Source: Exiguobacterium marinum DSM 16307
Lineage (GTDB): Bacteria; Bacillota; Bacilli; Exiguobacteriales; Exiguobacteriaceae
Assembly (NCBI RefSeq): GCF_000620845.1
Contig: NZ_KK211189.1
Span: 1,503,662 to 1,567,661 of the forward strand
DNA: 64,000 bases
Reading direction: 5' to 3'
Under the pieces are notes generated by a model. That model searched no databases. It was not told where the DNA came from and saw nothing but the letters and a program-made list of their open reading frames with translations. The position numbers and the translations under genes were made by a program. Below are positions 32,285-64,000 of this stretch, in pieces. Position 1 is the stretch's first letter. The number at the start of each line of letters is the position of its first letter.

Positions 32285-32318
32285 AAAAAGATTGTCTCCG
32301 GTGAGACAATCTTTTTTT
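32283..32318. terminator. Bidirectional terminator between yqgX and yqgY
   Basis: AAAAAAAGATTGTCTC and GAGACAATCTTTTTTT form a 16-base-pair stem around CGGT. Confidence 0.92.
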
Positions 32319-32580
32319 ACATTTGGAAGTTGCTCCAATACGTAAAGACAACGAAGAAAATTGTCAAATACGCCCCAAAGACATATACATACGTTTTTTC
32401 AGTTAACTTTAAGTAACCTAGAGCGACAAAGAAAATCGTTTGTGCTAAGAAGACAAGTCCCATAACGATAAAGTCACCAGTATGTTCACTACTACTTTGG
32501 TCGCCGCCAAGTGCGCCTACGAAAGCAAGTGCCGCCACTAGCCCAGTCCAAAAGCCTAGGACACGAAACATTCTTGCCAT
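32317..32580 (-). CDS. yqgY: DUF2626 small membrane protein (YqgY-like)
   Basis: This 87-residue protein has three hydrophobic segments: FWTGLVAALAFVGAL, DFIVMGLVFLAQTIFFVALGYL and VYVFGAYLTIFFVVF. It begins MARMFRVLGFWTG, like the DUF2626/YqgY family of Bacilli, and sits where yqgY does in B. subtilis. The ribosome binding site GGGGGGATTAAC precedes the ATG. The function is unknown. It is divergent from the Spx-family gene across 249 bases that carry tandem TTGTACAA elements. Confidence 0.8.
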   Translation of the reverse strand: MARMFRVLGFWTGLVAALAFVGALGGDQSSSEHTGDFIVMGLVFLAQTIFFVALGYLKLTEKTYVYVFGAYLTIFFVVFTYWSNFQM

Positions 32581-32710
32581 GTTAATCCCCCCATGCGTGC
32601 ATTATTCCATTCTCATTCACTATTTTACCAACACATTCGAAAAAATGCTATGGAAACGTGAGAATTGCGCAAAATAATCGTGAAAAATATGTGAAATCAT
32701 TCTGATAAAA

Positions 32711-32776
32711 AAAGTTGTACAAATTTTTAATAAAGTTGTACAAAACATATACAAAGTGGGTATATAAGTGTATAAT
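32711..32776 (+). promoter_or_regulatory. Tandem 13-base repeats and promoter upstream of mgsR
   Basis: AAAGTTGTACAAA occurs twice, at 32711-32723 and 32732-32744, exactly 21 bases (two helical turns) apart. Each holds the palindrome TTGTACAA. A TATAAT -10 lies at 32771-32776. GGGTAT at 32758-32763 with GTACAA 14 bases upstream could instead be a sigma-B promoter, the type known for mgsR in B. subtilis. The repeats lie just upstream of either -35 or across it. Confidence 0.55.
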
Positions 32777-32829
32777 CAACTTATACAAACTGAACGAAGT
32801 AAAAAGTTGAATGAGGGAGGATTATAAAA

Positions 32830-57798: not shown

Positions 57799-58530
57799 GT
57801 GATTACATTATGTATTGCGGACGACAATCGAGAAATCGTCGATTTGTTGAGCCGACAACTAGAATCTGAGCCTGATCTTCGTGTCGTGGGAACGGCGCAC
57901 GATGGTGAAACGTGCTTGGATGTCGTCAAGACACACCAACCGGATGTACTCTTACTCGATATTATCATGCCGCATTTGGATGGAATTGGAGTATTGCAAC
58001 GTCTTAATGAAGAGTTCGGTGACGAGAAGCCGGAAGTGATCATGCTCAGTGCGTTCGGGAAAGATGAAGTGACGAAACAAGCGGTTCAACTCGGTGCCTC
58101 TTATTTTCTCGTCAAGCCATTCAATATCCAACAGTTGTTAACGAAGATTCGAGAATTGTCGGATGGGACGAATCGGGAGTTTGAAGGGATGACACCCGAA
58201 GAGATCGAGATTTCACTCTTACTGCAACAAATGGGCATTTCTCCACGAATCAAAGGATTCAAGTACATCCGTCAAGCGGTCATCTATGTGAGGGAGCGTC
58301 AAGACTTGCTCGGTCTAATCACGAAAGAGTTATATCCAATGGTTGCGAAAGAACATGAGACGACTTCGTCGCGTGTGGAGCGGGCTATGCGCCACGCGAT
58401 TAAGACGGCTTGGGGTAACGGGATGCAGGACCATGAAATGTTTGAAGGACGACCGGAGCGTGAGCGAAGCCCGAAAAACTCGGAGTTCATCTCTTACTTC
58501 GTCACGTATTTATCGTTTAAGAACAATTAA
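57799..58530 (+). CDS. spo0A: Response regulator Spo0A
   Basis: This 243-residue protein is the master regulator of stationary phase and sporulation in Bacilli. The receiver domain has the acidic pair Asp8-Asp9, phospho-acceptor Asp54 (LLLDIIMP) and Lys106 (LVKPFN). The DNA-binding domain from about 135 keeps the recognition helix (TTSSRVERAMRHAIKTAW) and the end (SPKNSEFISYFV) nearly unchanged from Bacillus. All key residues are intact, so it should be functional. GTG start with AAAGGAG 8 bases upstream. Its former partner spoIVB and the spoIIIA genes are missing here, so it probably governs non-sporulation targets, such as biofilm or competence. Confidence 0.94.
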   Translation: MITLCIADDNREIVDLLSRQLESEPDLRVVGTAHDGETCLDVVKTHQPDVLLLDIIMPHLDGIGVLQRLNEEFGDEKPEVIMLSAFGKDEVTKQAVQLGASYFLVKPFNIQQLLTKIRELSDGTNREFEGMTPEEIEISLLLQQMGISPRIKGFKYIRQAVIYVRERQDLLGLITKELYPMVAKEHETTSSRVERAMRHAIKTAWGNGMQDHEMFEGRPERERSPKNSEFISYFVTYLSFKNN

Positions 58531-58542
58531 AAAAATCGATTT

Positions 58543-58576
58543 GGACTGAGTCATGATCGGCTTAGTCCTTTTTTAT
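58543..58576 (+). terminator. Terminator after spo0A
   Basis: GGACTGAG and CTTAGTCC pair (one G-T) around a 10-base loop, followed by TTTTTT. Confidence 0.85.
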
Positions 58577-58588
58577 TCAGTTTAAGAA

Positions 58589-58625
58589 AGAAAGCGCTTG
58601 CAAAATACTCGCTCTTTGTTATAAT
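58589..58625 (+). promoter_or_regulatory. Strong promoter overlapped by a cre-like site
   Basis: -35 TTGCAA (58598-58603), 16 bases and -10 TATAAT (58620-58625). AGAAAGCGCTTGCA (58589-58602) matches the cre consensus TGWAARCGYTWNCW at all but the first position and covers the -35. CcpA would repress this promoter when good sugars are present. Confidence 0.75.
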
Positions 58626-58924
58626 AAAGGTGTACCAAGTTACTTGGACAAGCGTCAGATGAACGCTTTTCAAACTTGTTCCGGAGCATGTTTGAAGAAA
58701 TATAATCATCTCGGTTCGCTATCCGATTATAGCTCAGAGGTGGGAACGACACCTCAAGTCGTTAATGTCCCGACGTGAGGTCGCGGCAGTCGCTCATTTG
58801 CGAGACGATTCTATCATCAGCTCGAAGCTAGGGGTTGGTATAGGGAAAACGAATCGTTCAGTTAACCAAAAGGAGTGTTGTCAACCGTTGAACAGTTTAT
58901 GGCAAGCGCTCGACTTCACAATGG

Positions 58925-59065
58925 ATGGTTGGACATGATCCGATAATCAAAAAGTTAGTAACTCGAATGGAAGCGTTCCGTTCACGCAAGACGGCAGTTA
59001 CTAAAATTCTTTCATACTTCTTCATTAAGAAGACGTTGGATATCATGTCAAAGCAAGCAAAGTAG
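58925..59065 (+). CDS. Possible 46-residue basic peptide
   Basis: The frame reads MVGHDPIIKKLVTRMEAFRS and then RKTAVTKILSYFFIKKTLDIMSKQAK. It is rich in Lys and Arg with a hydrophobic stretch (ILSYFFIKK). It has no ribosome binding site of its own, but its ATG lies inside a 16-codon frame that starts TTG at 58888, 12 bases after AAAGGAG, and that ends at 58936-58938. Coupled translation is conceivable. I recognise no family, and it could equally be chance within an RNA gene. Confidence 0.25.
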   Translation: MVGHDPIIKKLVTRMEAFRSRKTAVTKILSYFFIKKTLDIMSKQAK

Positions 59066-59108
59066 TTAGAAAGGAGATCATCCGTAGTGATCACAATTCA
59101 ATACGAAT

Positions 59109-59155
59109 AAAAGGTTCCGCACTTGAAATGAAGTCAAGTTAGGGAACCTTTTTTT
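59109..59155. terminator. Strong terminator, probably shared with yqzF
   Basis: AAGGTTCC and GGAACCTT with inner ACTTGA/TCAAGT form a long stem followed by seven T on the plus strand and AAAA (four T on the minus strand) on the other side. Confidence 0.85.
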
Positions 59156-59161
59156 GTGTAC

Positions 59162-59410
59162 TTATGAGTCGAATCGTTGAACTTTTCCTGATTTCTTGTC
59201 GCGGTTAAAAATATAGCCAGCTACAAATCCGATCCCACCCATGGCGAGCAGAAGTCCAAAGGTCCCCTGCAACATAGAGGCGGCAGCGAGTGAATCAATC
59301 CATGTGAAGGGTGTGCTCGTCTTCAAAAAGAAGCTGTCGCGGAGCAATTTTATTCCGTAGACACCTAGTAGTCCGGGGATGATTAAGATTAGAAGTGCGA
59401 TGAAACGCAT
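59162..59410 (-). CDS. yqzF: DUF2627 small membrane protein (YqzF-like)
   Basis: This 82-residue protein has two transmembrane segments: FIALLILIIPGLLGVYGIKLL at the start and GTFGLLLAMGGIGFVAGYIF. The start MRFIALLILIIPGLL and the intervening KTSTPFTWID are typical of DUF2627. It lies between spo0A and bkdR, as yqzF does in B. subtilis. AAAGGAGGAG precedes the ATG at 59410. Its function is unknown. Confidence 0.82.
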   Translation of the reverse strand: MRFIALLILIIPGLLGVYGIKLLRDSFFLKTSTPFTWIDSLAAASMLQGTFGLLLAMGGIGFVAGYIFNRDKKSGKVQRFDS

Positions 59411-59544
59411 GCAATCTCCTCCTTTACCATACATTATTTTAACAGAAATCATTTCGCTCGACACTGTCTATTTTTAGGCGACTTGCGAATCAACATAGGA
59501 TTCAGTAGCATGAAGAAGAGAAGAGAGATGATGGGGGAATAAGT

Positions 59545-61182
59545 ATGAATAAACGATTGATGATTGTCGGGGCCGGAAAAGGCGGGTCAGAGGTCCTTCA
59601 TATGTTGATGGATTCACCACTTGCGACTATTGTGGCAGTCGTTGACTCTGATGTATCGGCTGAAGGAATCGCTCTTGCGAAAAGTTACGGCATCGCTGTG
59701 ACAGACGATTGGACAAAATATGCTGAAGCTAAGCTAGACTTTGTCATCGAAACAACCGGACAGCATCAAACGTTCGAAGAGTTGAAAGACCATTTTAAAG
59801 AGGCGGTCGTGTTACCAGGAGAGTTTATTCGTATCGTTGTCGAGCGGTTGAAGCAGAATCAACAAATGCTTGAAGCAATCATTGAATGTACGAGTGAAGC
59901 CATTTCGGTAGCCGACCATCATGGAAATACGATATTGATCAACCCATCATACACTCGTTTGACGGGATTTAAAAAAGAAGACGTTGTCGATAAGCCGGCA
60001 ACGGCTGATATCGGAATGCAAGAAAGTGTCCATTTGAAAGTATTGTCTACCGGGCAAGGCGTCAGGGACATCAGAATGCAAATCGGTGCGACAAGACGGG
60101 ACATTCTCGTGAACGCGGAACCAATCATCGTGGAAGGTAAATTACGCGGCTCGGTCGGGGTCATCCGAGATGTGTCTCAAATCCGTGCGCTTCGAGATGA
60201 ATTACAGGAAGCGAAAACACGCATTCGGAATCTAGAGGCGAAGTATCAGTTTGCCGATATCATCGCGACGAGTGATGCGATGCGATTTGTCATTGAGCAG
60301 GCAAAACTTGCTGCGGTGACCCCTGTGACAGTATTGATTCGTGGAGAATCGGGAACTGGGAAAGAATTGTTCGCCCATGCCATTCACGGGGAGTCCCCCC
60401 GGAAATATAAGAAGTTCATTCGGGTCAACTGTGCCGCCATCTCGCCAACGCTTCTTGAGAGTGAGTTGTTCGGCTATGAGGATGGCGCGTTCAGCGGTGC
60501 CAAACGTGGCGGGAAAACGGGTTATTTCGAGGAAGCGGACGGTGGTTCGCTCTTTTTAGACGAAATTGGTGAATTGCCGCTCGATGTTCAAGTGAAACTG
60601 TTACGTGTCCTACAGGAAAATGAAATCGTGCGAGTTGGAGGGACAACGGCGATCCCAATCGATGTCCGCATTATTGCCGCAACGAATGCCGATCTTGAGC
60701 AAAAAGTGGGGGATGGGTCCTTCCGTGAAGATTTGTATTACCGGATCAATCGTATGCCAATCCACATACCACCTTTACGTGAACGGTTGAATGAACTCGA
60801 AGCGCTGTGTGACCGAATCGTACGGAAGTTGAATCAGGAATATGGTCGCAGTGTACGTGGGGTAGACGAAGATGCGTTGATTCTACTGAAAAGTCAGCAT
60901 TGGAAAGGGAACGTCCGAGAACTTGAGAACGTGATTGGGCGAGCGATGATTTACATGGCGAGCACCGACCAGTGGATCGCGCCTCACCACTTACAATTAT
61001 CAAATCGGTCTACAAGTCAAAAAGTAGTTGAGTCCGGGACATTCCATGAGGCCGTAGCGAAATATGAGCGAGATTTGATTGAACGAACGATTGAAGAAGC
61101 CGGTGGGAACAAATCAGAAGCAGCCCGCCGATTAAAGATTTCGATTCGGACATTATATAACAAACTAGACACCACGCAATAA
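59545..61182 (+). CDS. bkdR: Sigma-54-dependent activator BkdR
   Basis: This 545-residue activator turns on the branched-chain keto acid operon with sigma-L. It has an N-terminal Rossmann-like domain (LMIVGAGKGGSEVLHML), a PAS domain (about 110-215), a short coiled coil and the AAA+ domain from about 235. The AAA+ domain shows Walker A RGESGTGKELFA, loop GAFSGA (a Ser variant of GAFTGA), Walker B GGSLFLDEIGEL and the Arg finger region REDLYYRINRM. The C-terminal Fis-type helix-turn-helix is NKSEAARRLKISIRTLYNKL. The target promoter is immediately downstream at 61253-61269. Confidence 0.92.
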   Translation: MNKRLMIVGAGKGGSEVLHMLMDSPLATIVAVVDSDVSAEGIALAKSYGIAVTDDWTKYAEAKLDFVIETTGQHQTFEELKDHFKEAVVLPGEFIRIVVERLKQNQQMLEAIIECTSEAISVADHHGNTILINPSYTRLTGFKKEDVVDKPATADIGMQESVHLKVLSTGQGVRDIRMQIGATRRDILVNAEPIIVEGKLRGSVGVIRDVSQIRALRDELQEAKTRIRNLEAKYQFADIIATSDAMRFVIEQAKLAAVTPVTVLIRGESGTGKELFAHAIHGESPRKYKKFIRVNCAAISPTLLESELFGYEDGAFSGAKRGGKTGYFEEADGGSLFLDEIGELPLDVQVKLLRVLQENEIVRVGGTTAIPIDVRIIAATNADLEQKVGDGSFREDLYYRINRMPIHIPPLRERLNELEALCDRIVRKLNQEYGRSVRGVDEDALILLKSQHWKGNVRELENVIGRAMIYMASTDQWIAPHHLQLSNRSTSQKVVESGTFHEAVAKYERDLIERTIEEAGGNKSEAARRLKISIRTLYNKLDTTQ

Positions 61183-63347: not shown

Positions 63348-63348
63348 G

Positions 63349-64000
63349 ATGACGAAACGGCTAATTCTTGCAATCAACCCAGGGTCGACCTCGACGAAAG
63401 TTGGATTGTTTGATGGGAAGGAAGAAGTGATGACTCGCACGGTTCGTCATGAGATTGACGTGACCGGCCTCACTCTTCCGGAGCAATTGCCTCATCGTGA
63501 GCAAGAAGTACGTGCCTTGTTAGAAGAGACTGGCATCGCGGTCAACGATTTGACCGCGGTCGTCGGTCGTGGTGGCTTACTTGCGCCAATGACATCGGGA
63601 ACATATACCGTCAATGAACTCATGCGTGAGGATTTGACGAGCGGTCGTTTCGGGATGCACGCATCCAACCTTGGTGGATTGATTGCTTCTAAAATTGGTG
63701 AGCACGAAGGAGTCCCGAGTTTCATTGTCGATCCAGTCGTTGTCGATGAGATGCATGAGTTGGCCCGTAAGACGGGTATGTCAGAGATTGATCGTCGGAG
63801 TATTTTCCATGCTCTTAACCAAAAGGCCGTTGCGAAGCGATTCGCATCTGAAAATGGAAGCGATTACAACGAGCTGAATCTCATTGTTGCGCATCTCGGT
63901 GGCGGAATCACTGTCGGTGCACATGCGGCCGGCCGCGTCATTGATGTGAACAATGGACTGGACGGGGACGGTCCGCTTGCACCAGAGCGTGCCGGTTCAA
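63349..64000 (+). CDS. buk: Butyrate kinase, 3' end outside window
   Basis: The first 217 codons of a butyrate kinase are visible. It begins MTKRLILAINPGSTSTKVGLFDG, the acetate/butyrate kinase phosphate loop, and continues with VVGRGGLLAPMTSGTYTVNELM and LIVAHLGGGITVGAHAAGRVIDVNNGLDGDGPLAPERAG, the second nucleotide motif. It converts acyl-phosphate to acid with ATP gain. GGGAG lies 8 bases before the ATG. It starts 2 bases after the bcd stop. Confidence 0.93.
   Translation, partial: MTKRLILAINPGSTSTKVGLFDGKEEVMTRTVRHEIDVTGLTLPEQLPHREQEVRALLEETGIAVNDLTAVVGRGGLLAPMTSGTYTVNELMREDLTSGRFGMHASNLGGLIASKIGEHEGVPSFIVDPVVVDEMHELARKTGMSEIDRRSIFHALNQKAVAKRFASENGSDYNELNLIVAHLGGGITVGAHAAGRVIDVNNGLDGDGPLAPERAGS

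Follow-up and report, generated by a model that had tools for sequence, protein, structure and literature searches.

A candidate RNA gene with a putative CcpA site, conserved beside spo0A in the Exiguobacteriaceae

RosA, a sponge RNA of Bacillus subtilis for RoxS and FsrA, is repressed by CcpA (PMC8216469), and RsaI (RsaOG) of Staphylococcus aureus is a stand-alone, G-rich RNA that is repressed by CcpA on glucose (PMC9266662, PMC8216469). The RNA gene described here, found in a 64,000-nucleotide stretch of the Exiguobacterium marinum genome (the whole stretch analyzed, hereafter the window), resembles both in that it stands alone, carries G-rich regions and is predicted to be repressed by CcpA. 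The G-rich regions of RosA bind C-rich sRNAs; those of the RNA here are AAAAGGAGUGUUGUC and GARAGGRG, each found in 38 of 38 copies. RosA is about 229 nt long and has a predicted CcpA site from -1 to +12, whereas the RNA here measures about 525 nt and has its putative CcpA site (cre) at the -35 hexamer. RsaI is described in PMC8216469 as conserved in Staphylococcus and not in Bacilli, and the RNA here is without any Rfam match. A search of the window's genome for RoxS/RsaE, the C-rich partner of RosA, gave no more than a weak match near a terminator-like hairpin (20.5 bits, E 0.675, cut-off 79), so that RoxS was not detected as a pairing partner in this genome; a diverged RoxS/RsaE partner is possible.

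Three further RNAs can be compared by size or kind. RNAIII of S. aureus is similar in its 514 nt, its 14 stem-loops and its possible small frame (PMC9266662); however, it is controlled by agr and codes a known peptide, whereas the RNA here lacks an Rfam match. The OLE RNA (RF01071) is described as ornate, about 600 nt long and Gram-positive, which likens it to the RNA here, but it was rejected after its covariance model scored above 50 bits in none of 37 Exiguobacteriaceae genomes. Of the 24 genomes searched from the class's other families, 9 matched the same model at 504 to 545 bits. At L031, the single OLE locus read, the neighbors of OLE, which we take to be ispA-like and oapA-like genes, differ from the spo0A and DUF2627 genes beside the RNA here, and a connection to OLE through DUF2627 as OapA was rejected given that the gene beside OLE in L031 encodes a different protein of 208 aa. 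The RNA here also has a likeness to 6S RNA (RF00013) as a housekeeping structured RNA; that it is a missing 6S RNA was rejected, since the window's genome has 6S elsewhere (78.6 bits). By this comparison the RNA would resemble RosA and RsaI in its control and its G-rich motifs, and its size and absence from Rfam appear to place it in no described family.

Extent, distribution and novelty of the RNA gene

The gap between spo0A and the convergent DUF2627 gene (58531-59161) measures 631 bases and is the longest internal stretch of the window without an ORF of at least 90 aa. The earlier note had called it the longest gene-free stretch, which holds inside the window, but by the same threshold a stretch of 653 bases at the window end (63348-64000) is longer. 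The second-longest internal stretch, 32285-32829, is mostly accounted for by a gene for a small DUF2626 protein. Within the gap, a terminator-like hairpin behind spo0A is followed by the cre/-35 segment, the promoter, a hairpin-rich stretch and a terminator (Table 1).

Table 1. Features of the RNA gene and its neighbors, in coordinates of the window
Feature	Position	Strand	Evidence
Gene for small DUF2626 protein	32317-32580	-	inside stretch 32285-32829
spo0A, upstream neighbor, outside the RNA	57799..58530	+	Pfam Response_reg and Spo0A_C
Terminator-like hairpin after spo0A	58543..58574	+	terminator scan and sequence
cre (putative CcpA site) TGCAAGCGCTTTCT, overlaps the -35 hexamer	58589..58602	. 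(matches on minus strand)	exact fit to TGNAANCGNWNNCW
Sigma-A-type promoter TTGCAA-16-TATAAT, TG before -10	58598..58625	+	scan and conservation
RNA gene, about 525 nt	58631..59155	+	start estimated from -10, end at T run; 38/38 family genomes
Hairpin P1, CCAAG/CUUGG here, CCAAA/UUUGG in sister group	58635..58647	+	cross-group pairing tests
Hairpin P2, near-invariant loop UCAGAUGAA	58651..58667	+	alignment and pairing tests
Hairpin P3, variable stem, CCGG near tip	58667..58698	+	one significant covarying pair in sister group
Invariant UCAUCUC, can pair with P2 loop (AGAUGA)	58706..58712	+	paired in all rows, never varies
Hairpin P4, three shared pairs, inner two vary	58718..58733	+	cross-group pairing tests
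Hairpin P5, best cross-group covariation	58737..58755	+	cross-group pairing tests
Hairpin P6, loop GAAGCUAGG here	58820..58835	+	alignment and cross-group test
G-rich/SD-like motif 1 AAAAGGAGUGUUGUC, invariant	58868..58882	+	38/38
Tiny frame 1, 16 aa, TTG start	58888..58938	+	open, not coding-like
Helix P8, closes inner hairpin	58955..59004	+	cross-group test
Hairpin P9 with invariant CUUCAUUAAG	59017..59032	+	alignment and pairing tests
G-rich/SD-like motif 2 GAAAGGAG	59069..59076	+	GARAGGRG in 38/38
Hairpin P10, loop UCCGUAG	59076..59092	+	cross-group and pairing tests
Tiny frame 2, 7 aa, MITIQYE	59087..59110	+	open in 38/38
Intrinsic terminator of the RNA	59109..59155	+	conserved in alignment
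DUF2627 protein gene, convergent neighbor of the RNA	59162..59464	-	Pfam; 37/37 loci checked

Conservation in relatives, on which the earlier note had let its reading depend, was found by a BLASTN-type search of 61 genomes, with the element located at the corresponding site in 37 of them: 19/19 genomes of the same-genus group (the window's included), 18/18 of the sister group and 0/24 of other families. Identity to the window copy, self apart, was 83-94% in the same-genus group, and sister-group matches consisted of short blocks only; a second search with a sister-group copy as the query recovered the element in 38/38 family genomes. Each of these 38 copies was cut out from the first base behind the -10 to shortly beyond the T run, which gave lengths of 532-545 nt in the same-genus group and 568-763 nt in the sister group, and no second copy was recognized in the searches of family genomes. 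Seven of the 19 sister-group copies (L020, L021, L023-L027) measure 600-763 nt. A 10-base tandem repeat, AAGCAAGACC, occurs in 19.1 copies inside the RNA of one of them (L023:1080-1270), and a similar repeat was spotted by eye in the RNA of L020.

The gene appears to be specific to this family at the sensitivity of Infernal's stricter filters with few candidates scored per genome. When 398 genomes of the class were searched with one model for the 5' domain (R1) and another for the 3' domain (R2), both matched 38/38 family genomes, with E values no worse than 2.8e-32 for R1 and 6.5e-24 for R2. Among the 360 genomes outside the family (E up to 0.1), R1 gave weak matches in 11 (best 4.8e-4; four in one genus) and R2 in 4 (best 0.002), never in the genomes matched by R1. 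Three of these 15 were inspected, and the verdict of chance covers those three: one matched mostly at a terminator, one was a 55-base match around P1/P2 and one matched in part, with the hairpin and loop of P2 present. On 26 loci (4 OLE loci and 22 spo0A loci of other families), R1 had no match at E up to 5 and R2 had one, at E 3.6. A scan of viral contigs returned no matches, and all 25 genome records matching a signature of the RNA were from Exiguobacterium.

The earlier note recognized no known RNA family in the gap, and we reached the same result: Rfam 15 at the gathering cut-off reported two tRNAs in the window and nothing in the gap, and the 7 hits of relaxed searches of the gap and 2 hits of relaxed searches of six loci all fell far below their cut-offs. 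Among open-licence papers on Exiguobacterium RNA, searches showed no description of this RNA, and the passages of PMC4247613, PMC6158405 and PMC5399880 that bear on it do not describe it. Small RNAs have been predicted computationally in Exiguobacterium genomes, with numbers given by clade and higher in the psychrophilic clade (PMC10837837), and the locus could be among those unnamed predictions. For E. antarcticum B7, RNA-seq data from growth at 0 and 37°C are available (PMC4247613). So far as Rfam 15 and the literature searched show, the RNA would represent a new family. With a promoter of its own, a conserved cre and a copy in all 38 family genomes, the stand-alone structured RNA gene proposed in the earlier note is, to judge from the sequence, almost certainly real, and we infer that it is transcribed.

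Promoter and putative control by CcpA

The near-consensus promoter and the cre over its -35 that had been noted earlier are both present. A promoter scan found one promoter versus a mean of 1.3 in shuffles, which alone is no better than chance; we take the promoter as real because it is conserved in the 19 same-genus genomes, and it is intact in all 38 extracted copies. Across those 19 genomes, the mean column identity of the cre/-35 segment is 1.00 (rounded, with a single base different in L018), compared with 0.60 for the spacer and 0.69 for the sequence upstream. The cre fits the consensus exactly in 18/19 same-genus genomes and with one mismatch in the remaining one, and it always lies at the -35. 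In the sister group, 10/19 genomes have a cre of no more than one mismatch at a position 13 bp farther upstream, and none is present at this threshold in the other 9/19. Given that the site is displaced or absent there, control by CcpA is not universal in the family; in the sister group CcpA may act as an activator, exert weaker control or have no effect.

CcpA is encoded in the window's genome (514.7 bits, cut-off 442.35), and a CcpA site able to block the promoter is found, as sequence only, in the window's genus. There, CcpA bound to the cre would cover the -35, and the RNA would be off on glucose and on once preferred sugars run out. From the position of the cre, we consider repression of the RNA by CcpA in the window's genus to be probable. 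Over the whole window (1-64000) there are 102 cre-like sites with one mismatch or none, versus 65.8 expected; this count includes any coding bias and was reached by 0/100 shuffles.

The reading that we favor, at a probability of roughly 0.55, is that of a stand-alone noncoding RNA, repressed by CcpA in the window's genus, that acts by base pairing in trans. The RNA would be a chain of conserved hairpins and loops with its own sigma-A promoter and its own terminator. The partners of its two G-rich, SD-like motifs would be C-rich: sRNAs of that kind, or 16S rRNA at its anti-SD end. Its loops of the UUCAU type could base-pair at the start sites of mRNAs. For the base pairing in trans by itself, we put the odds at about even.

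Hairpins, tiny frames and rival explanations

The RNA of the window folds at -152.3 kcal/mol, which beats all of 100 shuffles (z -3.84), and z ranged from -2.65 to -4.29 for the window copy (L001) and four orthologues with 60 shuffles each. The most conserved segments are the UCAGAUGAA loop, UCAUCUC, GAAGCUAGG, AAAAGGAGUGUUGUC, CUUCAUUAAG, GARAGGRG and (A/U)UCAUCCG. Variation in the UCAGAUGAA loop is confined to C or U at the second base and A or G at the last; in some sister-group copies of GAAGCUAGG, A replaces either the first G or the U. P3 forms a stem, with CCGG close to the tip, in most versions but not in all of the sister-group ones. In the 5' domain (alignment A1, all 38 sequences, 35 distinct), 96.4% of 700 cells were paired versus 27.6-41.3% when slid, and 9/20 pairs had changed on both sides, a count reached by 9/500 column shuffles. 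In the 3' domain (alignment A3, 31/38 sequences, 27 distinct; L004, L011, L013, L025, L035, L036 and L052 dropped), 100% of 675 cells were paired versus 37.0-59.3% when slid. Pairs changed on both sides (3/25) were reached there by 461/500 column shuffles and are hence no evidence. For cells with changes on both sides, 0/500 shuffles attained the observed count.

Because these hairpins had been picked on the sequences tested, the structure predicted from one group was tested on the other. When the sister-group structure was placed on the same-genus group, 533/804 double-changed cells paired (66%) versus 28-50% when slid, and over all informative cells the figure was 770/1709 (45%) versus 36-44%, barely above the controls. 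Changed cells were still paired in P2 (42/42), P4 (18/18), P5 (76/76), P6 (25/25), P9 (19/19), P10 (19/19) and the main stem of the terminator (48/48), and nearly so in P1 (19/20) and P8 (62/72). The other sister-group helices mostly failed on the same-genus group (for example, 27/159 and 25/156), as did the inner terminator extension predicted from the sister group (0/38 cells). In the reverse direction, the full-length fold of the same-genus group paired 318/743 double-changed cells in the sister group (43%), inside the 25-47% of slid controls, and it failed over all informative cells, with 640/1933 (33%), level with the low end of the slid controls (33-42%). A simplified, tree-based covariation test (60 null alignments, E<0.05) gave one significant pair in the sister group, in P3 and inside the structure, and none in the same-genus group. 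The two-sided changes amount to about a dozen events, given that most fall on the single branch between the groups. Local hairpins are thus common to both groups; a long-range fold is not established, since the same-genus fold fails on the sister group and the sister-group structure stays near its controls over all cells, which leaves the local hairpins secure. The P2 loop and UCAUCU possibly form a pseudoknot; they can pair in every row, and both sides are invariant, hence the pairing is no proof.

The strong terminator that had been noted at 59109-59155 is conserved, though a simple terminator scanner did not report it; that scanner found the terminator of spo0A alone (58543-58568), one hit versus 1.1 in shuffles. 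The RNA perhaps shares its terminator with the convergent DUF2627 gene.

These data also bear on the view that the RNA is a large ornate RNA, OLE-like in kind, which serves as a scaffold or catalyst in an RNA-protein particle and does not act by base pairing. The size of the RNA, its many hairpins with conserved loops, the possible pseudoknot and a single recognized copy kept in all 38 family genomes would fit such a role, in which the conserved loops would make protein or tertiary contacts and would not be antisense seeds. The two groups, however, do not share a long-range architecture, no protein partner is known, and neither OLE nor any other Rfam family matches. A family-specific ornate RNA with carbon-source control, working as an RNA-protein particle or a compact tertiary fold, would stand beside OLE, GOLLD and ROOL, and the wiring of its control would have changed inside a single family, with the cre over the -35, upstream or absent; we regard this account as unlikely, although it and the peptide account below are the chief rivals of our reading.

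The two ribosome binding sites of the earlier note are both present as SD-like sites, and they raise the question of whether the transcript has a dual function or makes small peptides. On that account the SD-like motifs would start two tiny proteins, one of 16-20 aa and one of 7 aa, with the hairpins as structure of the mRNA. Start codon, frame and stop of both tiny frames are kept in 38/38 copies, and the insertion in frame 1 of L041 (sister group) adds three bases in frame, all of which would suit coding. Openness alone, however, means little, because five antisense frames of at least 6 aa are likewise kept in 19/19 same-genus genomes. Frame 1, which is 16 aa long in the same-genus group and 19-20 aa in the sister group, changes without a coding pattern: its variable columns fall 2/3/4 by codon position in the same genus and 4/5/2 in the sister group without L041, and the amino acid is altered in 5/7 and 7/7 of the varying codons, respectively. 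Frame 2 varies in the window's genus in one codon, at the third position and synonymously, which favors a peptide, but across the whole sister group, where it reads MKPTLYE or similar, one varying codon is synonymous and four change the amino acid (two and two without L041). The start codons lie rather far from their SD-like motifs (12 nt for frame 1, 10-11 nt for frame 2), the GTG of frame 2 falls within hairpin P10 and the frame is too short to judge. The stop codon of frame 2 overlaps the start of the terminator stem in the window. Peptides from the tiny frames are possible and not supported by these patterns, and a small peptide as the main product, as the earlier note had entertained, seems improbable to us.

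The surroundings of the gene speak to the idea that it is the 3' UTR of spo0A or the leader of the downstream bkdR-like gene. The genes are adjacent and on the same strand, but the terminator-like hairpin behind spo0A would part the RNA from the spo0A transcript, and the sigma-54-activator (bkdR-like) gene, which starts at 59545, lies beyond both the terminator of the RNA and the convergent DUF2627 gene. DUF2627 is convergent with the RNA in 37/37 loci checked (36 on the minus strand, L041 from coordinates), and spo0A is upstream in 36/37, the remaining locus having no spo0A match within the stretch covered. The gap from spo0A to DUF2627 widens to 1290-1505 bases in 8/17 sister-group loci; in L030, the large-gap locus that was read, the RNA is not directly behind spo0A, because a reverse RibD_C-family (dihydrofolate-reductase-like) gene intervenes (399-1055, minus). 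Among spo0A loci of other families (24 loci from 22 genomes, 1.0-1.5 kb downstream), DUF2627 was found in 1 and a bkdR-like gene in 0. A UTR or leader is very unlikely on these grounds. That the gap holds a decayed gene or the remnant of a lost sporulation locus, which had been raised because the RNA follows spo0A and which the description of the genus as non-spore-forming (PMC4319586) would favor, is scarcely credible, given that promoter, hairpins and terminator are constrained in all 38 copies and no ancestral frame is shared: of 19 same-genus genomes, 1, 7 and 1 keep the three ORFs of the gap (44, 57 and 46 aa, respectively) intact with unchanged ends, and none of the three has a Pfam match at E up to 1.

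Significance for the family

Our preferred reading remains that of a noncoding RNA that pairs with its targets in trans and is repressed by CcpA in the window's genus. To our knowledge, conserved bacterial noncoding RNAs of more than 500 nt are few, and each has been hard to explain; here, such an RNA without a match in Rfam 15 is kept in 38/38 genomes of a culturable genus group. The placement of the cre over the -35, upstream of it or nowhere, depending on the clade, offers a natural experiment. If the control by CcpA is true, Exiguobacterium would join Bacillus, with RosA, and Staphylococcus, with RsaI, as lineages with a CcpA-controlled RNA of their own, a pattern that would point to repeated origins of such RNAs.
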